A DNA stretch of 64,000 bases, taken from a virus. The stretch covers positions 21,610 to 85,609 of the IMG/VR virus record IMGVR_UViG_3300033153_006968; one strand, given 5' to 3'. Below, piece after piece: positions 1,664 through 61,984 of this stretch. A model generated the notes under the pieces. That model saw nothing but the letters and a program-made list of their open reading frames with translations, was not told the origin of the DNA and did no database searches. Made by a program: the position numbers and the translations under genes. Numbering within the stretch: position 1 is the first letter of the stretch; each line of letters starts with the position of its first letter.

Positions 1664-4600
1664 TTAACCCACTTCATACAGACCACTTGGTAATGGATCG
1701 TTCAAGTCTAGGAAAACGCGCTGATCTAGTACAGACGCTATTTCGCTATTATCATCTTTCAATCTATATCCAATAGGTGTCATATTAGGAGCAACTCCAG
1801 AGAACGTATATCCATCTAAATCAACAGACCTAGTATCTAATTTCCTCGTTCTTCTAAACCAAGTTACGTAATCTTCATAAGTTAAACCATAGTCTGGCTG
1901 GAATGTATAATCAGTTTGCTCTCCAGAACTAAGTCTAATCTCATCATAATAACCAAGAGCGCTAAAATTTCCACCAAGGTCCACAACTTCAGCTCCAATA
2001 CCAGAAGCGGCAAATCCAGCTACATATTCTAATCCAGAAGTTATAGTCTGAGGAATGTTGTTGAAAGGTATATTGTCGGAATTAATGATAGAAATATTAT
2101 CTACCCAAACATCTAAATCAAGCTGTCCGCTATTGAGAACTACGTCATCTGGACTAAAGTCCCAAGACATTTTGATCTGATGCCAATAACCGTCTGTTAA
2201 ATTAGTGCTGTCTAATCTATAGGCTCTTTGACTCGCTATTCCAGCAGTCTGTCCACTCGCCATCCAGTCAAAGAATACATATGGAGTAACGCCGATTTTT
2301 TCTGCGCGGATAATAATTCCATCATAACCTATCGGACTCGTACCATCCTCTAGAGTGGTAGAACTTTGTCCAACAAGATAATTAAGATATTCCGCATTAG
2401 AGCCTGAACCCAATTGATAATCTGCGTAAGGAGTCTTGTAATGTAACTCAAGAGTTCCTTTGTTCATATCTAGATATTCAGGCACTAGACCACTAGCCAT
2501 TACACAATCGCTAGATACGGCAACACTAAGAGACTGAGTATTAAAAGCATTTGTAGTAATAAAAGAAGTTCCATAATCAGTTCCGTCTACACCACTGGGG
2601 CTAGCATCTGTGTAATCTCCATCAAAACGATACAAAACTCTTGAAGGAGGATCTGTTATCGTTAATTCTTTATACTCTTTGATAGTAGTAGGTAGTCTTT
2701 CATTAAGATAGTAATCCCATAATTCACCTGACGTAGCTATGATAGTGGCATCTGGTAAAGCATTAACGTCATAAGGTCTATTAAATAGATTGGTAGGTAT
2801 ATCCGCCGAAGAAGTAAAGAAAAATACCCCATCAGATTTCTCAGGAACGTTAGTGTCAAGATTTATAGTATTCGAATAAGTCTTCTTTCTCGTTTTGTTA
2901 TTTGTTATGTACGCTCTAGCTCTATCTCCGCCTTCAACGGCAATAAAGAAAGATCTAACATCGCCGGCAAATGGATCTTCTCCATCACTAGCATAAATTA
3001 GCTGAAGAATAGGATTATCAGATGTTCCAATGTTCTGATGGTGGATAGGCCATATAGGAGAGTTAATAAAATCTATAGAGATAAAATAAATAGTTCCGCC
3101 AGTTCCAACAACTACATAATTCCCATCGTTATGTCCAACTCCATGAAGATTAACAGATCCATTTACACCTGTAAGAACAGTCCAATTACCAGTTCCGTCT
3201 GGAGAACTCATTATGACGTTGCTATTAGCTGAAGTAACGAAAAGTCCAGAACCGTAATCAATTCCCTTAAATCCGTAACCAGCAACCGTTGCAGAATCCC
3301 AGCTATCTCCGTCCGAAGAGGTGATTATGGACCCTATTCCAACAAGTAAAAAGAAACCATCTGCATAAATACCATCATAATAATCTTGTTCCACAGGAGC
3401 TGACTTTGGAGTCCAGCTACTCCCGCCATCTGAAGAAACTGATAAATTCCCTTCTTGACTCCCAACTACCCATACGCCATTGCCATATGTGATACAAAGG
3501 CAATCCTGTGCAATTCCTACATTGTCGCTAGACCAACTAATTCCGCTATCTGACGATTTGTATACCTCGCCCGAAAACGAAGATGCTATCCAAAGACCAC
3601 TGCCATAAGCAACGTCGAATATCCCACTTCTGTCACCAGCTCCGGCAGATTCGCTCCAATCAATTCCGTTCGACGAAGTTAGGATTATCCCACTATCTCC
3701 GCCTGCAACAAATATGCCGTTTGCGAAATGAATGCCATCAAAATCTTCACCCGATGTTCCGCTAGTTCTAGCTGTCCAGACTTTTCCATCTAAAGATGTT
3801 AATATGGTGTCATTATTTCCAACTGCCACCCAAAGACCTGCTCCATAAGTAACTTCATTCAAGTCTTCGCTCGTTCCGCTAGTCTGCGAAGAAGGTATTA
3901 AACCATTTTGCTCAATCCCAAAATGAGGACTTATAACTCCCGAATCAGAATCATATAGCAGAACTTTCCTTCCCGTTCCAGTATTAGACGAGAGGGTATC
4001 GTCAAAGGTTACAGGCTCTTCAAGGCCAAACATATCTCTGTAATCTTTCTCAAAATCTAACCCCGACTGAAGAGAAGTAGATACGCCCATAGGGGTAACT
4101 TCGAATTCTTCATCTGTAATATAATCTGTATAATAATCGTCTAAACCACTAGCTGGAATCCCGATAGAATCGTCGTTATCGTAAACGGCATAGATGAGAA
4201 CCCCACTAGGACTAGTCGGTTCAAACAGATTTGCTATCTCATATATATTGTAATCACCGCTTACAGTCACATCTTGAGTGAATCGACCTACACTCTCAAA
4301 ATTGGCAGGTGGACTATAGATGACCTTTGCTTGACCACTTGCGTCCGTCAAAGAATTGTCTAAGTTAGCAGAACCCACAGAAGGATCCAGTATCTCAAAG
4401 CCAACATTGACACCCTCGATAACTCGACCCTCAATATCTTTAACCGTCGCTACAAGGTTGCCTACAGATCCGCCAACCTCTGTCTGGTAGTCAGATCCAG
4501 TCTCGTAGCTTGCTTCAAGAATTATAGAGGCAGGCTCAGTATCGTTCATTGTGGCTAGAACGAATCCAGCGTCAAACGGATTGTGGATAGGATTAGTATC

Positions 4601-13600: not shown

Positions 13601-16472
13601 TGTTGTCTTGATTATCTCCATCGCCGGGCTGGATAGATACAAGCTCAATAGGCTTTTCAGCCTCATAAGAAGCACAGCCTAAAGAGCCAACCAGCTGATT
13701 AGGAGCCATAGCGTTATCTTTGAAAGAGCTATCTTTCTTTGAGATATAATCGTCTACCGCTCCGTTATCTGCTTCGCCATCTTTTTCGTCTGCTTTAGAT
13801 TGTCTTTCTATTAAATCTTTGTTCTCTCTCGAAAACATGCCCGTCAATAAACTAGATTTCTCTAGACCGAGTATATCCTTCTCGTACACATTCTTAAACC
13901 AGTCACCCTCTACTTGCTCTTGTGTCTCTTTTGCTTCAATAATGGCATCCTTTGCATCGTTCATAGCTTCGATAGGAATGAGATTATCTACAACATCATT
14001 TTGCGGCTCAAAGAAATAAAAATCAGGATCAATGAAAGCAGCTATTCCAACGTTCTTTAGAGCTAGTCCAGATTCCTCATACAAGCCATTCAATTTGTTA
14101 TATGCGTTCTTAGACAGATCGTCAGAGCTTGCCTGAAGCGTAGAAAGAACATCCCTAATGGGAAAGTCAGGATAATTATCTGCGCCGGCAGAAAGACCAG
14201 TCTTATTCATTGACTCTCTAACCTCTTTGAACTGGGGAAGATCTCGTAAACTCTTAGTATTTAAAATTTTATCAAGGAATTTCTGCGTAAAAACTGCCCA
14301 TTCCTGAAAGCTATTATTGATAAGAGCATTTAATCTAATGTTGTCTTCAGTTCCAATCCCTTCTACGATATCTTCAACGCTTGTATCTCGAAATTGTCCC
14401 ATCCCTATACTTCCAAGAAGAGCTTGTTCTTCTTGTCCTTGATTATATGCGTCTATAATTTTTTCGCTTTTAACCTGAGTATCTCCAAGGTTATGTTCTG
14501 ATACATAAGATTTTCCATAAAAATCACTTCTAAATGTATTAATATATCCTTGTCCTTTCGCTCTTCTAATAGAGTTGTATATTTCTGTTAAATCTTCGTT
14601 AACTCTCTCTATACTTATTAAATCTTTATTCTTTAAAAGTAAAAGATCTGCCACTATTTCTTTAGCTAAAACTGAATTATTCCAAGGTCCAATTAAATTT
14701 CCTAAATTGAGAACTAATTTTTTAACAAAATTCGCAAGATTTTCCGCATACTCGGAACAAAGTTTTGCAAACCGTGCATTTCTACCGTTGTTTTCAGGAC
14801 CAGAATATTCATAATATTTTAAGGGAGAAAGAGCAACTCCAAATGCTTGCTTCCCAGATTCCTGAATTTCGATCTTTTCATGAGTTGTTTTATAGTTTAG
14901 ACCTAAAAAGAAATGTTCTGTAGCTCCTTGTATTTCATATAGTTTATCTGGATAAAATTTAATATTTTTTTCTATAATCTCTGCAATCTTTGACCTTAAA
15001 TCCTGACCGCTTGTAAAAGATCCACTAGCTTGAAAATTCTCCCTAGTGTACTCTGTCAAAGGATTATCTACGAGAACAAGGGCACCCTGATAACTGCCAG
15101 GTTCTCCCTCTATGTTCTCAACAACGAAACTCTCTGCAAGGAACCCTTCGAGTCCACACATGTTAACTATGTCATTTTCAATCTTGATGTTTCTGTGTCC
15201 GGCGGGAATATTCCTATATTTTAAAGATTGATCTTCCACCGCAGAATAGAAAGAAGAAAGCTTCTCTATAGCGCTTTCCATAGTTGTAGCAAAAGAAATA
15301 ACTACTTCAGCGTCTATACTTCCTATATGTTGAAAAGATGGGAATGGATGTCCCATTAGAGGAAGCATTGCAAGGATATTCTCAAAAGAAATAGATATAC
15401 TTTGTATGACTAATCCTGTGTCGTTGAAGTCTAAACTTACCCCGCGAGAAAGAAGAATGGTATCTTCCTTATCATATTTGTCTTTACCGTCTGGATTCTT
15501 CTGAAGAGAAGGAGAACCTTTGAAAGAAACGGCACTACCATTTATTTGAACAACGGTCCACTCAGTCATATATTCGTATTTAGAACTAGATAGTTGATTA
15601 GTTAAAACGTTCCTAAATTTGCTCAATACTTGAGTCGCAGGCATATCGTCAAGCATAGAGGTCATATCACCGACTAATTCTCTAACGTTTGTCTCTGCCC
15701 ATCTCTTGTCGGCGACTTCTTTAGAGAGCATATCTCGAATGCCTTTTATATCCTGATTCTCTTTCCCTTCAGCGCCAGTCATTAAAGAGGCTAGATTAGA
15801 GCGAATACTCTTAATAATCTCAATTTCTTTTTCTAGTTGTTCGTATTTTCTTATTGTAATAGAACCAAATTGTTTGAAACGAGCGGTCAATCCAGTCTGC
15901 AAACTTCCGACATCTCTGTATCCGAAATCGCTAGTGCGAAACGCCCTTCTCTGCTCCGCATGATAAAGCATTTTCCAAGCCTTAGAATCTGCTGGATTGA
16001 AAACTGGCTTAGGTTCCCATATATGAGATTTGAATGCAAAGTCTCTTGTGAATGGGAAATAATTAAACCAACAAAAATGAAAATTAACAGTAATTACATT
16101 TGTGTCTTGATTGTCTTTAACGATCTCTATCTGTTTAACTGCTATAGCCATATTCTGAATATTGTTACTTCCAAGAATAGACTTTCTAAGGAATTGATTT
16201 TCGATAAAACAGAAAGGAGTTACGCGGATTTGAGAGATAATATTGCGCAACTTAGAAAGCCCATTTGTTAGATCTCCTATTTTATTCCCTGGAGATGGAT
16301 TGTCTGTGAATTCCGCAGTTACATAGATGTCAAGAGTGGAGTAGCCAGACTTAGATTTGACAGATGAACGAGTCCTAAGCGTCTGCCACTTGTGATTAAA
16401 TGAACGTCTATCTATTCTTATATTTTTGGGAGGAATATCAAGAATTATGTCATTGATCTGGAATGAACTCAT
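10650..16472 (-). CDS. Giant baseplate hub with internal M23 peptidase
   Basis: A 1940-residue tail hub. The N-terminal ~500 residues are beta-rich and baseplate-like; residues ~500-1000 are largely helical. Residues ~1030-1190 are an M23 (LytM-type) zinc endopeptidase: HKGLD gives ligands His1046 and Asp1050, and HLHF at 1168-1171 gives the catalytic and ligand histidines. Such domains cut peptidoglycan crosslinks during entry. Residues ~1225-1420 match late-control-gene-D/hub domains (LQPGIQVQLNLGYSNN, FNGVITDV), continuing to ~1750 (VDNDTARLNFDDAK). The C-terminal ~190 residues are low in motifs. It lies between the RNAP-like gene and the OB-fold spike gene. Fusion of hub and lysin in one chain of this size is unusual. 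Confidence 0.85.
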   Translation of the reverse strand: MSSFQINDIILDIPPKNIRIDRRSFNHKWQTLRTRSSVKSKSGYSTLDIYVTAEFTDNPSPGNKIGDLTNGLSKLRNIISQIRVTPFCFIENQFLRKSILGSNNIQNMAIAVKQIEIVKDNQDTNVITVNFHFCWFNYFPFTRDFAFKSHIWEPKPVFNPADSKAWKMLYHAEQRRAFRTSDFGYRDVGSLQTGLTARFKQFGSITIRKYEQLEKEIEIIKSIRSNLASLMTGAEGKENQDIKGIRDMLSKEVADKRWAETNVRELVGDMTSMLDDMPATQVLSKFRNVLTNQLSSSKYEYMTEWTVVQINGSAVSFKGSPSLQKNPDGKDKYDKEDTILLSRGVSLDFNDTGLVIQSISISFENILAMLPLMGHPFPSFQHIGSIDAEVVISFATTMESAIEKLSSFYSAVEDQSLKYRNIPAGHRNIKIENDIVNMCGLEGFLAESFVVENIEGEPGSYQGALVLVDNPLTEYTRENFQASGSFTSGQDLRSKIAEIIEKNIKFYPDKLYEIQGATEHFFLGLNYKTTHEKIEIQESGKQAFGVALSPLKYYEYSGPENNGRNARFAKLCSEYAENLANFVKKLVLNLGNLIGPWNNSVLAKEIVADLLLLKNKDLISIERVNEDLTEIYNSIRRAKGQGYINTFRSDFYGKSYVSEHNLGDTQVKSEKIIDAYNQGQEEQALLGSIGMGQFRDTSVEDIVEGIGTEDNIRLNALINNSFQEWAVFTQKFLDKILNTKSLRDLPQFKEVRESMNKTGLSAGADNYPDFPIRDVLSTLQASSDDLSKNAYNKLNGLYEESGLALKNVGIAAFIDPDFYFFEPQNDVVDNLIPIEAMNDAKDAIIEAKETQEQVEGDWFKNVYEKDILGLEKSSLLTGMFSRENKDLIERQSKADEKDGEADNGAVDDYISKKDSSFKDNAMAPNQLVGSLGCASYEAEKPIELVSIQPGDGDNQDNNLNTNYRNSIESNVSPPSNAAAVQHRFETNEVLSFLPPSEYENPADHDSGKDPSFKWPTRSTVRRITSRYGKRDDPVAKKQGEKKPSFHKGLDLAADNWRDSRGSEILASASGRIIKISDYGKVIFHPTLEIAQQARADAKGVTLVIQHANGWITKYSHLMWDEITQGWASILYRSADLGISDDGVNRALTVEVGKLIGHMGTTGYSTGPHLHFQMEKDGQHTDPLPILKGETTKSQGPIAGLDPNNESLFTKSIEQFEKELKSGQGYGMKRAYPTFKLYFIESDLGERKKFAFDDFFSYSAIQEIEVIRSRKIAADLCRIRMTNISGVLSNRKFSFAADPTKNLDEEGNIAVEKGGSATNTAKENPIASLMLQPGIQVQLNLGYSNNPDELDVVFNGVITDVQFSESTDLVEIVCQSFAIELIQSIHGEVKEFGGWFDGDGRTFAMLEQLLASPEVVHFGRWEGGEFGKNAGYSLLKNRWKFQPSPQDDNIFAPQGSNVLGLMDRFLGNFSTTPTYSLYHTTVWDVFQEMTLRHPSYIACPVPYQGKHGPRMTMFFGLPDQLYFARDPDHSEEDVMEQMRKIVKDGVEGEEQQRAQERMVGNDSLPSEELENAVTTNDKKEQEAWVKKIAKIYALDKGFIKPFRSYHVLTSSMHILHNSISSSAHNTFNTVTLQYSDDSPYVDNDTARLNFDDAKAFTLKADAAIPDEEVRELFAQYPNCVGYEMAKNYCVSLLFNSLKEAYTGSIVSVGNPKIRPFDVVYIFDEYNDMYGPIEVEQVIHRFSQKNGFITEITPDLMVHVNQHSTMATADAMGLIVEQGLKSIGLQSLGSIVKASVGVGSIDTVGAAVTQGVLAPLSAPFAPIARMFFNSSENAIGVKGASSITGMLGIFIFRKLITRTQLAHPFRFSPLVLGNKPMIGGLPNRHTGGSFIQRIGKWIKEAERTAPLYLNDVYDKLHPNSWAGHTQGDISNYLLGDIISPPE

Positions 16473-50929: not shown

Positions 50930-53368
50930 TTATTTTAACTTACTATTGCAAATTTTAAATGCTGAAGCTTTAATTTTATCCTCTGACCAATCAGCATGCT
51001 TCGCCCGAAGATCTTTTTTAACCTTTAAAACACATCTCTCAAGCTTATTAGAATCAACTTTATCCTTCGTAGCTATACTCTCGCATACGGAATGAGCCAT
51101 AGCGTTCGCTTCTACTTCGGCTAAACCCAAATCACTCTTTTTTATTTTTCTCGTCATCCTACGTATACAATCGGCCATCGTAGCAGGATTCCTTTTTTTC
51201 TTTTGCTTATCTTGAACACTATCAACTATGTTCTCTTTAGCTATCTCGTTCTTAACAACAGCAATAGTACAATCGCAATTTGCGTGGAACGGAGGAACAT
51301 CATCAAGAGAAGCTAGAGATGTATCGTAAAGAATTTCTTCCAAACGTGCATGACATTTCTCGCAAGCGTCTTCTGTTAATTTTATCCCAAATTTCCCCAA
51401 TCCAAGATGTCTCAACCCTATCACTTGCCCAAAGCTATTCGCCCGCCCTATCTCAACATCTTCTATAAACTTTGTTCTATACGAAAAACTATCAAAAGTA
51501 TTTCTAATAAAACTTAAAGCCTCTTGAATATTTGTTTCTTTGTTGATATTGCGCTGTAAAGTTCCGATAGTATCGTTAACGAGTTTATCTACATACTTCT
51601 CCATTCGGTTCTTTAAAGAAGATCTATATATAGACAAAGCAGAAATAAATGCATCACTCCGAGTAGAACTAAAGCTAGAATAGCCTTTTCTGAAAGCGGT
51701 AATTTGATTATCGTGTAATTTGTCGATAGCGGACGAGATAGAAGTTCTGATAAGTTGGCCGATCCAAAGCTCGTCTATTTCGCCTTTATCAGAAACGTAA
51801 GAAACTATCTCTAATTTAGTTTTATTATATACGGTTGTTAAAGCAGCATCGTTGATACTGTTCTTAACGGTCTTCTTAGCTGGAGAGGGCTTCTTTGCTA
51901 TAGCGGCCTTCTTAACGTCAAGCTCTTCTTTGCGCGCTGATTCAGCCGCCGCCCTTGCTTTGGCAGGGTTAGAATATGGCTCATCTACTGCATTAATAAG
52001 AGCCTTAGGTCTTTCCATCAGCGGCCATCTCAACGCATACCATTCTGGATATTTATCTCTATCATCCTGACCGTTATCGATTTCGTCATAAGAGGGAAGC
52101 TCTATAGGTTCTCGACCTACACCAAGTCTAGCTTCATGAAGGGTAACTACATCTTTATTATACTGATCCGCATAATGAGCTTCTTTTTTAATTTGCGAAA
52201 AAACATCTATTTCTTTGAATTTCAAAGCAACTATATTTTCATCGTCTAGGGCGTCAAAAGGAAAGTTAGACTCAAGTAATAATTCTTTAATGATATATTC
52301 ATTAATAAATATTTCTGTTATTTGTTGATAATCCTTAACTCCATCTATAAGATTTTGAGATAATTGTTCGGCCGTACTTCTGTTGCTACTTTCGGTCTCT
52401 CCAAGATCTACTGGAGACATTCCAAGACCGGCAAACACTCTACGTTTAAAGTGGGTAAGATAGCTCTCTGCCCTTAAAGCTCTACCCTCCGCGCCGATAG
52501 CAGAAATCTCATGTCGTTCGGTGGTAACAATACCGCCTTCTGTAGGCATATACTGAATTTCAGCCTTAACAATGTCAACTTCCTTAACGCCTTTCTCTGT
52601 AGTTCCGGCTGGCATTTCTTTTGTGCCTACCTTCCACTGGAAAAGAGGGAAAAGGTGCTGATAGATAAGTAGTTCAATATTTTCTTCTATCTTTCTTAAC
52701 GCTCGAATATCGTCAATAACTGGAGTAATTGTAGGAGTTCCAAATATAAAACCGTCCTTTCTTTCATAGAACATATGGACAATATCTTCAGGAACGAACT
52801 CTTTTGTATAACCGTCTGGTAAGCTCTGTCTCCATCGAACGATTTTATTTTCAGTCATCTTAAATTCCATAGTCTCCGCCGGAGCTATAAAATAACCAGC
52901 AACTGGCTTCAAAAGCTTTCTCGTTCCAGAAGGAACTCTTACCTTCCCTCCAGAAGATTTAATATCTCGAACCTTAACAACAAACGCATTAGACTTCTGA
53001 ACAATACTTGTTCCCATATCTCTAAACAGTTTAAGGGTCGGGACACCAGTTGCGTTAGAAATCTGAGAAAATCGTGCTTTGATATACTTTATAGTTTTAG
53101 GATTCTTTCCAATAAGAGTCCAGCCCTCTTTATACATAAGGGCAATCTTTTTACTGAATGATTGTCTGGCATAACTTTCTACATCGATTATGCGTCCAAT
53201 TTCTGCAAGATTATATTCAGGAGGATCCCAAGGACCTGCCTTCTTGGATGGATAATAGCTATAGCCTAAAACGGGATCTACTACGCGAGTAGTCGTAACA
53301 GGCTTCTTTATCTGATCGGCAAATACAACCTGAACAGGATGAATCTCTTTGATAGATCGATCACTCAC
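50930..53368 (-). CDS. Portal protein fused to MuF-type domain
   Basis: An 812-residue fusion. Residues ~30-430 have portal character: YARQSFSKKIALMYKEGWTL, KYIKARFSQIS, the clip region FVPEDIVHMFYERKDGFIFG, and LGMSPVDLGETESSNRSTAE near 330. Residues ~500-720 match the MuF/gp7 head-morphogenesis module with the terminal hallmark ACEKCHARL and PPFHANCDC. The last ~85 residues contain two Cys-bounded helical units (CIRRMTRKIKK...C and CVLKVKKDLRA...C). GTG 53368 has GAGGAG seven bases upstream. It lies next to the protease gene, as in SPP1-like head modules. One chain probably makes the dodecameric DNA gate plus internal proteins. Confidence 0.8.
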   Translation of the reverse strand: MSDRSIKEIHPVQVVFADQIKKPVTTTRVVDPVLGYSYYPSKKAGPWDPPEYNLAEIGRIIDVESYARQSFSKKIALMYKEGWTLIGKNPKTIKYIKARFSQISNATGVPTLKLFRDMGTSIVQKSNAFVVKVRDIKSSGGKVRVPSGTRKLLKPVAGYFIAPAETMEFKMTENKIVRWRQSLPDGYTKEFVPEDIVHMFYERKDGFIFGTPTITPVIDDIRALRKIEENIELLIYQHLFPLFQWKVGTKEMPAGTTEKGVKEVDIVKAEIQYMPTEGGIVTTERHEISAIGAEGRALRAESYLTHFKRRVFAGLGMSPVDLGETESSNRSTAEQLSQNLIDGVKDYQQITEIFINEYIIKELLLESNFPFDALDDENIVALKFKEIDVFSQIKKEAHYADQYNKDVVTLHEARLGVGREPIELPSYDEIDNGQDDRDKYPEWYALRWPLMERPKALINAVDEPYSNPAKARAAAESARKEELDVKKAAIAKKPSPAKKTVKNSINDAALTTVYNKTKLEIVSYVSDKGEIDELWIGQLIRTSISSAIDKLHDNQITAFRKGYSSFSSTRSDAFISALSIYRSSLKNRMEKYVDKLVNDTIGTLQRNINKETNIQEALSFIRNTFDSFSYRTKFIEDVEIGRANSFGQVIGLRHLGLGKFGIKLTEDACEKCHARLEEILYDTSLASLDDVPPFHANCDCTIAVVKNEIAKENIVDSVQDKQKKKRNPATMADCIRRMTRKIKKSDLGLAEVEANAMAHSVCESIATKDKVDSNKLERCVLKVKKDLRAKHADWSEDKIKASAFKICNSKLK

Positions 53369-56277: not shown

Positions 56278-58302
56278 CTATATATTTTTCCTTGAAGGCT
56301 TAGAGGTCCTAACAGATCTATTCGGCCCTGTTCTCTCGCCAGAGCGTATCTTAGGCCTAGGAGAATCACTTCCAAAGCCAGGCCAAGCCCAAAGTTTAAC
56401 CTCTCCACCCCTATTTAAATTCGCGCCAGGTAAAGGATTGTTATTTAAGATAAGATTTTCACTTGGTGTCATTTCTTCTGCTCTATTTAGATCTGGCCGA
56501 CTCTTTGCTCTTTCGTCGACCTTCTTTTTATTCTCGATGATTATACCAGCTCCTTCAAGGTCTGGCATTATTTTTTCTCCAAATCTACCAGCAAATTGAA
56601 AATCTACGCTATAACTGGGTTTACCGAATAATGTTTTTTCTAGAGTATAGCCAACAAGGGCCAACATAAGGGCATCTAGTGCATGATCTCCTATTTTTGG
56701 ATCAGATGTTTTATATACTGGAGAACCTGTAGAAGTAACATGATCTACTATGTAACTGAGCAATTGTTTTTCTAACTTGTCGTCATTTTCCGAATAATGG
56801 AGAGTTCCTGTTTCAAACCAGCGAACAGTATTTTCAACAAGGAAAGGCTTAGACGGTTTAGAAATAGGTTGCTTAGTGATAAGATCGTGAATTTCTACTC
56901 GCCCGCCGAAATTATAACCTTTAACAATATCCTTCAGCTTTGCATCTGGATGATTAGATCCCTTGTTAGGATTATTGATAGCGTCATATCCATACTTCTT
57001 CAATATCTCTAAATTAGTAGCTCCATATCCGGTATCGACATATATAAATGCCGGTCGCCAAAATTTATTCATTTCTGCTATTTTTTCCATCGCGGCGAGT
57101 TGAGTCCATCCGTCTCTACTAACTATCTTTCTGTCAAGGATGTAAGCATGCTTACTCATAGGCTCAAAGCCAACAACAACTATATTAGTTCCAATTTTTA
57201 CATCGTTCCAATCTACTCCAATAATATGTATCCATTTAGAATCATATTTGTGCTCTCCGTAATCGTAAGGAGATTTAGCAGCTTGAACATATAAGTTCTG
57301 AAACACACCTTCTTCTTGTTCTCCGAATATTGCAAGCGCTTCATGCTTGTAGGCAATCTCTGTAAGTTGTCCTTTTAGAGTTGCTTCCAGTTCCTCATTC
57401 CAAAGAGGGTTGACTTGCGATGGATAATGAAATTCTCTATACATTCTGTTATGACACGTATTATAGAATGTATCTCTTGTCCCTTTAGGGGTTGAACTCA
57501 TCCATACAATAGCGTCTGGATAATTGGTGATAATAGATAAAGAACTGTCTAAGTCTCCCGCATTAAGATAATCTGCTTCGTCAAAAACCAACATATTGGC
57601 TTTCTGACCACGAACACTGTCTGCATTACCTCCAGACTTAGTTCCTGCGGTAAAACCAGTGCAAATACTCTTGTTATGAAGTTCAAGCTTACAAGGAGGA
57701 GATCTAGTACGGCTTTTAATAGAGTTCATGGCCATAGAACTAACTGACAGTAATTCGTCCATCCGATTAAAAAGAAGATCGATTTGTGCCTGATAGGGGG
57801 TAAGAATTATTACTCTGAACCCTTCATTCTCTGATACTCCGGGCTTGGTAAAAAGATGGAAAAGTATAGCAATTACAAGAGCTTCCGATTTGCCAGCCTG
57901 ACGACCAATCCGAAAAACTTTTCTCTTCGCCGCGCAACGAAGCATCATTGCTTGATAAGGGCGATGATATCTAGATTTCCCTAAAATATCTTCGTCTGGA
58001 TGCTGATCTATCCATTTATGATATTCTTCTGGATTCTTTCTTTTCCAAATTTCTCCGTCAGGATCGAAACAATGCCAGTCTAATACTTCTGCTGCCCAGG
58101 TTACCGGATCGAGCATAGATAAAGCTGTTCTTATTTCTTCTTCGGGAAGAATATGGCAAAGTTTTTTATCTATATATTCTTCAGGAATACCGCTACAATT
58201 AATGCGAAAAGGATTCTCTTCGCCCGGCTTTAAGCGATGTTTCTTTTTGTAATTAAGAATGCAGTCTGTACATTCTTTTTTACACTTGTTGAGATCTAGC
58301 AG
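56278..58302 (-). CDS. terL: Terminase large subunit, probable CTG start
   Basis: The DNA-packaging motor. Counted from ATG 58116 (612 residues), Walker A GRQAGKS lies at 71-77, Walker B LVFDE at 176-180 and the coupling motif SSTP at 207-210. The RNaseH-like nuclease has Asp302 (GVDWND), Asp361 (YVDTGYG) and Asp477/481 (KIGDHALDAL). The open frame continues 62 codons upstream to the stop of the preceding gene without any ATG, GTG or TTG. That stretch reads as protein, with a Cys cluster (CKKECTDC) and ending in IRTALSMLDP. A CTG at 58302 has GGAG seven bases upstream, making a 674-residue protein likely. Conventional gene callers would start at 58116. The C-terminal ~120 residues are basic and disordered-looking. 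Confidence 0.9.
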   Translation of the reverse strand: MLDLNKCKKECTDCILNYKKKHRLKPGEENPFRINCSGIPEEYIDKKLCHILPEEEIRTALSMLDPVTWAAEVLDWHCFDPDGEIWKRKNPEEYHKWIDQHPDEDILGKSRYHRPYQAMMLRCAAKRKVFRIGRQAGKSEALVIAILFHLFTKPGVSENEGFRVIILTPYQAQIDLLFNRMDELLSVSSMAMNSIKSRTRSPPCKLELHNKSICTGFTAGTKSGGNADSVRGQKANMLVFDEADYLNAGDLDSSLSIITNYPDAIVWMSSTPKGTRDTFYNTCHNRMYREFHYPSQVNPLWNEELEATLKGQLTEIAYKHEALAIFGEQEEGVFQNLYVQAAKSPYDYGEHKYDSKWIHIIGVDWNDVKIGTNIVVVGFEPMSKHAYILDRKIVSRDGWTQLAAMEKIAEMNKFWRPAFIYVDTGYGATNLEILKKYGYDAINNPNKGSNHPDAKLKDIVKGYNFGGRVEIHDLITKQPISKPSKPFLVENTVRWFETGTLHYSENDDKLEKQLLSYIVDHVTSTGSPVYKTSDPKIGDHALDALMLALVGYTLEKTLFGKPSYSVDFQFAGRFGEKIMPDLEGAGIIIENKKKVDERAKSRPDLNRAEEMTPSENLILNNNPLPGANLNRGGEVKLWAWPGFGSDSPRPKIRSGERTGPNRSVRTSKPSRKNI

Positions 58303-58313
58303 ATGTTATCTCC
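58300..58313 (-). promoter_or_regulatory. Ribosome site deciding a CTG start for terL
   Basis: GGAG (58313-58310) lies seven bases before CTG (58302-58300). It overlaps the final codons and TAA stop of the 130-residue gene, so terL may be translationally coupled to it. Confidence 0.55.
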
Positions 58314-58698
58314 AGCCTTTGAGGGTACTTTGGACTTTATTAATACTTTTATTCGCCATAACTCGTGTTCCTCGAAAATCTAAACGGGCACGATTAACAA
58401 CCCCTCTACCAAAAGCACTTCCGTATGCTCTAAGACTTCCTCCAAATCCCATTCCTCTGCCAGACAAAGCTGCTCTTTTAAATCCAGCTCCTAAATAACG
58501 AGCACCACCAGCTCCCATTAAAGCTCCACCAATTACGCTCGTATCTCCAGATGCCATTCCCCAGCCAGCACCTACTCCAGCCCCAATAGCCGTCCTACGA
58601 CCAGCAGCTCCCATACCTCTCCATGCAGCACCAGCCATTCCTGCAGCGGCACCTCCAGCTAGTAAAGATTTTGTAGCCCAATTCATTCCTGCTATCAC
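58306..58698 (-). CDS. Small Ala/Gly-rich membrane-type protein
   Basis: A 130-residue protein, probably starting at GTG 58698 with GGAGG nine bases upstream. It is very rich in Gly, Ala and Arg (SLLAGGAAAGMAGAAWRGMG, AAGRRTAIGAGVGAGWGMAS) with Gly-zipper-like helices that could insert in membranes. It resembles the two preceding genes in composition and may be part of the same set. Its TAA stop is in the same frame as terL. Function unknown; an internal ejected protein or a small pore is possible. Confidence 0.5.
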   Translation of the reverse strand: MIAGMNWATKSLLAGGAAAGMAGAAWRGMGAAGRRTAIGAGVGAGWGMASGDTSVIGGALMGAGGARYLGAGFKRAALSGRGMGFGGSLRAYGSAFGRGVVNRARLDFRGTRVMANKSINKVQSTLKGWR

Positions 58699-58711: not shown

Positions 58712-59287
58712 CTATCTCAAATACGGAGACGACATAATCAAAGCTTCATTACCCAACGCTCCCCTTCCATTGAGATGACTATTTTGTATTGCTTGTAGAC
58801 TTCTCTGTCTCATTGTAGATATAGTTCCAAATCTATCAACTACGTCAGCGCCTAATTCTAATCCTTTAATTCTCTTTTCATGAGCTATAGCGGCCTCACC
58901 AAGTTTATAGCCTCCATAACCAAGACCAGCTACTGCGGCGGCTCCAAGAGTAACGGGATTAGCAAACATAGACCAGGCAGCTCTCATAGCTCCCCACGTC
59001 GCCGCATCAGCAGCTACATTCTTGGTAGCTCCCATTATTCCGCCTTCCTTGTATCCAGAATAGGCAGAATAGGCAGTAAATACAGGAAATAACCCACGAC
59101 CAAGAGCGGCCATTTTTCCAGCGGCAAATACTCCACCAGCAGCCTTTCTTCCCATGAAACCCTTGGACACTCCGCCTTCATAATGCATACCAAAGGTCTC
59201 TCCAACGCCTTGCGCAAAAGCTCTACCAGGACGAGATGCCATCATAGTGCCTCTTGCTCTTTGAACAAAACTCTGATCAGACGCCAT
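58712..59287 (-). CDS. Small Ala/Gly-rich membrane-type protein
   Basis: A 191-residue protein with Arg/Gly-rich N-terminus (RARGTMMASRPGRAFAQGVG) and hydrophobic Ala/Gly segments (VTLGAAAVAGLGYGGYKLGE, YSAYSGYKEGGIMGATKNVA). The C-terminus is more polar (LQAIQNSHLNGRG). Like its neighbours it resembles the hydrophobic parts of the giant 1251- and 1423-residue tail proteins in style. No family is recognised. A virion or membrane role is inferred. Confidence 0.5.
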   Translation of the reverse strand: MASDQSFVQRARGTMMASRPGRAFAQGVGETFGMHYEGGVSKGFMGRKAAGGVFAAGKMAALGRGLFPVFTAYSAYSGYKEGGIMGATKNVAADAATWGAMRAAWSMFANPVTLGAAAVAGLGYGGYKLGEAAIAHEKRIKGLELGADVVDRFGTISTMRQRSLQAIQNSHLNGRGALGNEALIMSSPYLR

Positions 59288-59809: not shown

Positions 59810-61984
59810 TTATCCCGCAGTCTTATTCGGATCATAAAGAATCTTCTTCATTTTTGCATGACCCTTGCCTGGATTCAGAGAATAGGAATGAGCTTGTGCA
59901 ACACCGGACTTATGAAGTTCTTGTTGAGCTGCTTTTCTTCTAGCTGCAGCTTCTCTCAATATTCTTGTATGATTGTCAGATTCTTTGTATATTGCGCGTT
60001 CCATTCTGTCCATTACTCTTTTTTCGGCAGCATGACTTTCTAATATTTCGATTAGAGAACTAGATTCACCCCTTTGTCTGGCTACTGTCTCCCATAGACC
60101 TTCAGCTTCAACTGTAGACGCTCCAGGAGAAATTCTTGCTAATTTATCTTTGGCCCACCGATCTGCTAAACCACCTCTGATTTGTTCTCCGCTAAATTCT
60201 TTAGGTCCTTTACCAAACATCTGAGCTTGTTTATGAGGAGCTGCTGGAAGAAGCATCCGTTCAAGCCGAGTATTGTCTGCAATCCTTTGCAATCGCTGTT
60301 CAACAAATCTAGTCCCTGGACCGCTCACTTGCGCAGCGCTAAATTCTGTTGCTCCAGTTCCAAACGAAGCTTTTATTTCTGCAGGAGTAAATTTGAGAAA
60401 CCTCTTTTCAAGAGCAAGTGTCTCCCTCACTTTGAAAAAGCTCTTAACTCTGCCGAATATCCCTCTCCAACCAGATCCAAAGTCAGTATTCTCTCTTCTG
60501 GTTCTTCCGGCCATACCTTTATGAGATAACCCTTCAATCGTATTATAAGCATCATCTTTGCCAGAAAACGAGTTGTCTAGAAGTTCGTTAACCGAAGACA
60601 GGCCTTTATCAAAAAATCTACCAACCTCTCCAAAGAATCTACTTCCGACAGATTCTGTTTCTCCCTTTAGATCCCTCATTTTTTCTAACAGTTCATAATA
60701 TTGTTCAGGTACTTCCTCGCGAATTCTTTCGATCATCGGATCTACATTCGTTATTTTTCCTTTGAGGTAATAATACGCTCCAGGTACACCTTCTGTAACA
60801 ATATGGGGCACACCAGATGCAAGTTGGCCTACATACTCAGCAACACTAACTTCCTCCCCCTGCTTCCTCTTTTCTATTCTAAGTTTCTCCAGAGACATAG
60901 TTGCTGCCGCATGAACATCCTCATGCATAGTCCACATCTTGTCATGCTCGTGTAAGTGATAAAGATTACTAGTATGCCTATAGCTGACAAAAGAGGATTG
61001 TCCTGATTCTGGGATAGCAATTGTGACTGGGACAAATCCCAGCTCTCCTGTAAGTTCCTCTTCGCTAATTAAATTTTTAGGAATGAAGATTCTCTTATGC
61101 CCTGTCCCAGCTTCAACGCCATACTTTTCTAGACCGACTTTTAGCTGATTAAATATCTTAGCGGTTTCACTCGTATCACTTCCCTGATACCCAGATCCAA
61201 AATCGGTATGTATTCTCCTCAATCTCTCTGCTTGTCCACCATGAGGTAATCCTTCAATAGTATTGTATTCATCGTCCTTACCAGAGAATAGAGACAAGGG
61301 CTTCGTTAGATACAACCCCATCGCTGTTACGGCGAAGCCTCCAGCCATTTTTGTCCCCAGTGGAACGGTCGATAGACCTCGGAGACCCGCCTTACTGAGG
61401 ATACTTTCTTCAAACCCCAGAGCTGCCTTCTGAGCAGCCTTTATGCCTCTGGATACTTGCTGACCCAAGGTGGGTGGGAAAAGACGCTCAGTGAGCATTT
61501 CTGGGGCACTGGGGCCAAGTTTAGAGGCTAGTTCGCCCGTTATTCCGAAGTGACGAGCACGAGCAGCGATACTTCCATAAAAGGACGAAAGAGGTTGTCG
61601 AGGATCGAATGGACCTTTCCCTACTGCTTTAGTTAGTCGTTCTGTGAGAGCTAGTCTGTTCCATCGAGTAATGAACTGCTCTCCCGATTTTTCTGGAAAC
61701 AGGGATAGGTTTCTCCTAATATTGCGAGACCAACCAGCGAACTGGATCCCTTCTTCTTTGAGCTGTAGAGCTGCGCCAGCTTCGCCGAGCGTTTTTTCTA
61801 ATCTCAGACCCTGTTTAGTGTAGCCAACAGCTTGTCTGTAGAGTTCTGGATCTACTATTCCTGGATGTCGTGTTACTTCTTTGGCTGTCTGATATGCCCA
61901 GAGAAGATTAGACTTGGGTGTTGGAATTGGTTTGATTGGTCTGGGGAGAAATCTTTTCTGAAACTCTTCTGGAGTGAAAGGCAT
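59810..61984 (-). CDS. Virion-type protein with HEDVH metallopeptidase motif and duplicated cassette
   Basis: A 724-residue protein upstream of the packaging genes. It has one membrane-like helix near residues 210-228 (AGGFAVTAMGLYL). Directly after it comes a cassette at 232-268 (SGKDDEYNTIEGL ... TDFGSG) that recurs at 472-508 (SGKDDAYNTIEGL ... TDFGSG). Between the copies HEDVH at 354-358 fits the HExxH zinc-protease motif. A glutamate ~40 residues later (HIVTEGVPGAY) could be the third ligand. The C-terminal ~200 residues are basic and helical. A cell-wall or protein-cutting role during entry is inferred, not shown. A TATAAT box lies six bases before ATG 61984, and the ribosome site is weak. 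Confidence 0.55.
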   Translation of the reverse strand: MPFTPEEFQKRFLPRPIKPIPTPKSNLLWAYQTAKEVTRHPGIVDPELYRQAVGYTKQGLRLEKTLGEAGAALQLKEEGIQFAGWSRNIRRNLSLFPEKSGEQFITRWNRLALTERLTKAVGKGPFDPRQPLSSFYGSIAARARHFGITGELASKLGPSAPEMLTERLFPPTLGQQVSRGIKAAQKAALGFEESILSKAGLRGLSTVPLGTKMAGGFAVTAMGLYLTKPLSLFSGKDDEYNTIEGLPHGGQAERLRRIHTDFGSGYQGSDTSETAKIFNQLKVGLEKYGVEAGTGHKRIFIPKNLISEEELTGELGFVPVTIAIPESGQSSFVSYRHTSNLYHLHEHDKMWTMHEDVHAAATMSLEKLRIEKRKQGEEVSVAEYVGQLASGVPHIVTEGVPGAYYYLKGKITNVDPMIERIREEVPEQYYELLEKMRDLKGETESVGSRFFGEVGRFFDKGLSSVNELLDNSFSGKDDAYNTIEGLSHKGMAGRTRRENTDFGSGWRGIFGRVKSFFKVRETLALEKRFLKFTPAEIKASFGTGATEFSAAQVSGPGTRFVEQRLQRIADNTRLERMLLPAAPHKQAQMFGKGPKEFSGEQIRGGLADRWAKDKLARISPGASTVEAEGLWETVARQRGESSSLIEILESHAAEKRVMDRMERAIYKESDNHTRILREAAARRKAAQQELHKSGVAQAHSYSLNPGKGHAKMKKILYDPNKTAG
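60461..60571 (-). repeat. Cassette copy 2 in 724-residue gene
   Basis: It encodes the second copy of the ~37-residue cassette that begins FSGKDDAYNTIEGL and ends TDFGSG. It is recognisably related to 61182-61291 at both protein and DNA level. Confidence 0.85.
61182..61291 (-). repeat. Cassette copy 1 in 724-residue gene
   Basis: It encodes the first copy of the cassette (FSGKDDEYNTIEGL to TDFGSG), placed directly after the membrane-like helix. The two copies are about 720 bases apart and flank the HEDVH region. Confidence 0.85.

Follow-up and report, generated by a model that had tools for sequence, protein, structure and literature searches.

A predicted phage large terminase with a conserved N-terminal cysteine domain and a probable CTG start codon

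Among described large terminases (TerLs), T4 gp17 shares its ATPase-plus-nuclease fold with the TerL reported here, and the sequence match between the two begins downstream of an N-terminal Cys domain (profile position 47). The TerL of Acinetobacter phage vB_AbaM_ME3 (AND75174.1) carries an N-terminal CxxC...C motif, as ours does, but differs in having an ATG start, a longer N-terminus before the motif and an intein-like insert in Walker A. Unusual start codons have been described elsewhere. Streptomyces sigR begins at GTC, which gene callers ignore; that start has been tested and is regulatory (PMC5472188), whereas ours is proposed from sequence. ORF10 of phage phiB124-14 was called with a CTG start (PMC3338817) and thus provides a phage precedent, although the gene considered here encodes a packaging motor.

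The window analysed is a 64,000-nt part of an 85,609-base virus record. On its minus strand lies a gene that, in our judgement, is quite likely a TerL of the T4 gp17 kind with a branch-specific Cys domain, whose start was turned into CTG by one base change and whose translation begins there. The protein is of a known kind; it stands out by its unusual start codon and by an as yet undescribed Cys domain at its N-terminus. In this phage branch such a domain is commonplace, and the rarity lies in the start. The features, all on the minus strand, are as follows.

56278-58302, minus: TerL gene read from CTG, 674 residues (relatives' starts; PHROG, PDB sequence and fold matches)
58117-58302, minus: 62-codon N-terminal extension with C7, C11, C14, H22 and C36 (profile, invariant Cys, pLDDT)
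58300-58302, minus: CTG, proposed start codon (ATG, GTG and ATG in that column in relatives L012, L013 and L014)
58310-58313, minus: GGAG, Shine-Dalgarno (SD)-like, 7 nt before CTG (sequence; a strong SD by the rule applied to all genes)
58306-58308, minus: TAA, stop of the upstream gene, in the TerL frame (sequence)
58270-58272, minus: Cys11 codon, first Cys of CxxC (invariant)
58261-58263, minus: Cys14 codon, second Cys of CxxC (invariant)
58195-58197, minus: Cys36 codon, in C-x-G-I-P (invariant)
58114-58116, minus: ATG, internal Met63, which a standard caller would take as the start (without a strong SD)
57886-57906, minus: Walker A, GRQAGKS (G, R, G and K columns invariant)
58306-58698, minus: upstream gene, 130 aa, Gly/Ala-rich, ending QSTLKGWR (ending and junction conserved in L131, L018 and L020)

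The gene product is predicted to be a phage large terminase of the T4 gp17 kind. It matches phrog_2 (9e-33), its sequence matches in the PDB are T4 gp17 and the TerL of Thermus phage P74-26, and its predicted fold matches T4 gp17 (3.5e-19). An ATPase is recognizable from Walker A (residues 133-139) and VFDEAD, both invariant or nearly so in the alignment. An RNase H-like nuclease follows, with invariant acidic residues in GVDW (D364) and at D423 and D543, and Foldseek matches it to the nuclease domains of the G20c and SPP1 TerLs.

A sequence-only reading of this DNA had reported that the frame upstream of ATG 58116 is open and free of ATG, GTG and TTG, and that GGAG stands 7 nt before a CTG; both observations stand. 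The TerL frame is open for 189 nt, from TAA 58308-58306 to ATG 58116-58114, the minus-strand codons at the junction read TAA CAT CTG CTA GAT CTC AAC AAG TGT, and no near-cognate codon other than CTG occurs between the TAA and CxxC. From CTG to ATG 58116 there are 186 nt, or 62 codons; residues 7, 11, 14, 36 and 49 (CTG = 1) are Cys. In this tightly packed genome, no other gene of the 64-kb window has a long open in-frame upstream gap, and habitual use of rare starts by the phage was rejected, since TerL stands alone in this among the genes of the window. An SD core motif at exactly the GGAG-CTG spacing was found at 1.4% of random positions. A hairpin is predicted over the SD and CTG; the folded stretch is no more stable than its shuffled versions (z -0.81).

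A stop-free stretch of 63 codons arose in ~1.2% of simulated stretches, which is weak on its own; that the extension is more than chance rests on homology, which is decisive. A profile built from the N-termini of relatives, with the window left out and each sequence cut before Met63, found the extension alone at E=7e-18, the next best of 1739 six-frame window fragments scoring 0.48. Codon differences from six relatives are concentrated at third positions in the extension, as they are in the TerL body. AlphaFold2 predicts residues 1-60 to be folded, with block means of pLDDT between 82 and 92. Codon usage in the extension lies at the low edge of the phage's genes, yet is better than that of out-of-frame sequence. 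Scans with the single protein gave no full-length relative, and alignment-based scans then gave many; with tblastn, a Moorella phage match begins at residue 53 of the open frame and a Cetobacterium plasmid match at residue 12. Judged by sequence, the 62-residue extension is real, coding and conserved protein. The earlier proposal of a 62-residue Cys-rich N-terminus for this TerL is thus borne out by the profile match, by the third-position bias and by conservation in all close relatives.

The closest relatives are TerLs of IMG/VR phages (L012-L016 and L097-L126) together with L131, from contig QNDS01000244.1 of a Candidatus Fermentibacteria MAG. They are 44-62% identical to the window TerL over the full length and carry the same Cys domain; unlike it, they start with ATG, GTG or TTG, and several have intein-like inserts. 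After duplicates were removed by hand, 25 distinct close relatives remained. The first canonical codon stands 9-13 codons ahead of CxxC in every one, mostly at -11, with CTG at -10 in the window; the codon is ATG in 19, GTG in five and TTG in one. L012, L013 and L014 have ATG, GTG and ATG, respectively, precisely where the window has CTG, each directly preceded by a stop codon. No CTG start was seen among the relatives, and no standard start codon in the window gene could yield the conserved N-terminus. Because relatives have their canonical start in the CTG column or next to it, a caller restricted to ATG, GTG and TTG loses the true N-terminus here, just as the sequence-only reading had argued for conventional annotation.

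Had the gene instead begun at ATG 58116, the upstream stretch would be untranslated or decayed. This ATG is the first standard start in the TerL frame, and some distant relatives (from Moorella, Bacillus and Paenibacillus), which have no Cys domain, begin close to its position. However, none of the 25 close relatives starts there, and the sequence upstream of it is conserved in all of them, the opposite of what had been named as grounds for giving up the extension, namely homologues that begin at ATG 58116 and are dissimilar upstream. The corresponding column is itself variable, with M in 15 of 39 rows, L in 12 and V or I in others. The Cys motif and third-position bias are kept in the extension, ATG 58116 has no strong SD by the rule common to all genes, and a 189-nt gap would be out of line with the packed genome. 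We therefore rejected this start, which we regard as very improbable, on the starts of close relatives, the missing SD and the open gap. By position, then, CTG is the start, given where relatives start, the junction described below, its standing as the sole near-cognate codon, the absence of an SD at ATG 58116 and the open gap. The gene thus very probably starts with CTG, a start that none of the relatives seen shares.

The junction with the upstream gene carries further information. That gene ends at the in-frame TAA, which leaves one stop and one sense codon between it and TerL. In the closest relative, L131, and in L018, both of which share this junction with the window, the upstream protein ends in STLKGW or SSLKGW, followed by a stop, TTT and GTG; the window has STLKGWR, a stop, CAT and CTG. 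The position of the TAA, in the TerL frame and one codon before CTG, could also suggest that it is read through and that the upstream protein is fused to TerL. We find this scarcely credible. The record contains no tRNA gene, and therefore no phage suppressor tRNA, and TAA is an ordinary stop, used by 29 of 41 genes, which together make readthrough unlikely. Moreover, a canonical start follows the stop in relatives with a matching junction, and other relatives have the upstream gene in a frame different from that of TerL. Readthrough was rejected on these grounds.

Initiation at CTG fits the same junction. The geometry is that of a coupled pair, with the stop 3 nt before CTG and a strong SD, and re-initiation works better when the cistrons are close together and an SD is present (PMC2268962). 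Geometry and SD together suggest that translation of TerL may be coupled to that of the upstream gene. By the same rule, the junctions of L131 and L018 have no strong SD, whereas the window has GGAG; GGAG could compensate for the weak CTG codon, which one case cannot show. As separate observations, the upstream genes at 58306-58698, 58712-59287 and 59810-61984 have no PHROG match and the first two are Gly/Ala-rich, and the STLKGW ending of the gene just before TerL is conserved in relatives.

A different kind of doubt concerns the base itself. The extension may be real, yet with ATG, GTG or TTG as the actual start at 58302, so that the CTG reflects either a wrong base in the contig or a variant carried by a minority. 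We think this unlikely, but it has points in its favour: the canonical start found at this site in 25/25 close relatives, the single base that separates CTG from each of ATG, GTG and TTG, and the great rarity of CUG starts. CUG makes up 0.024% of bacterial starts and gives 0.86% of the output of AUG in E. coli (PMC11497404). Such an output is poor for an essential gene and counts against a CTG start. Pattern searches did not turn up the CTG site a second time; in the near-identical contig L002 (IMGVR_UViG_3300033143_004807), TerL is present only from residue 454 onwards and the site is missing. On the other side, there are rare records of AUG or GUG starts changing to CUG (PMC5622118), and a true CTG comes out 7 to 70 times likelier than a contig error at an error rate of 1e-5 to 1e-4, a rate that is assumed, not measured. 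We infer that CTG is the base of the living phage.

Under CTG initiation, a single base change in the window phage would have turned the ATG, GTG or TTG start of its relatives into CTG. Translation would then start at CTG 58302 with initiator tRNA, either by a ribosome that has just terminated the upstream gene at TAA 58308-58306 or by a 30S subunit docked on GGAG, and yield the 674-residue TerL. Output would probably be low, and may be enough for a motor of which few copies are required. A bolder version, distinctly unlikely in our view, makes CTG a selected throttle, with TerL produced at low yield by re-initiation only, so that the amount of motor protein follows the stage of infection, GGAG compensating for the codon, and the Cys domain serving as an undescribed zinc module of the packaging motor.

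The domain follows the pattern CxxC-x(about 20)-C-x-G-I-P over about 62 residues. Across 34 aligned TerLs that have it, C11, C14 and C36 are the only invariant columns in the first 80 residues, and G27 and G38 are nearly invariant. These Cys residues plausibly form a metal (zinc) site. The fourth ligand would vary: C7 and H22 are present in most close relatives, and outside this close group the candidates are other residues. The domain occurs in TerLs of very different phages, such as Acinetobacter ME3, and on the Cetobacterium plasmid, and is absent from the Moorella and Bacillus/Paenibacillus relatives. Neither sequence nor fold gave it a match in Pfam, PHROG or the PDB, and Foldseek with the domain alone returned none. 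A weak resemblance of CxxC...CxGI to the ArfGAP zinc finger (E 0.29) was set aside as chance. The literature searched contained no description of a zinc domain in a phage TerL; the zinc-finger terminase found there is herpesvirus pUL56, another subunit.

This locus is a clean, homology-backed case of a conserved domain that would be lost to a standard ATG/GTG/TTG caller, and the affected protein, TerL, is a hallmark phage protein used for classification. Many TerLs carry an N-terminal Cys domain that is absent from Pfam, PHROGs and the PDB, and its role in the packaging motor can be tested.

Some further observations concern other loci. Another stretch that is open ahead of the first ATG and has no canonical start (SIGPVEDTVSIVSPLLGSAGLKDSQYTFPSNDSSRFQLDFDV) lies on the minus strand of L133 at 3879-4010 (record G000 14778-14909, outside the window); it belongs to a 545-aa gene with no assigned function, for which no relatives were found. 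Several TerL relatives are much longer because of intein-like inserts, whose two insertion sites lie behind RC near residue 123 and within Walker A; those bearing them are L018 (2540-5707), L020 (2525-5707), L120, L129, L004 (ME3), L005 (KLEB27-3), L069 and L090. Finally, one ORF at 50930-53368 of the window combines a portal protein (phrog_9232, 1e-46) with a subsequent match to a head-morphogenesis family (phrog_4728).
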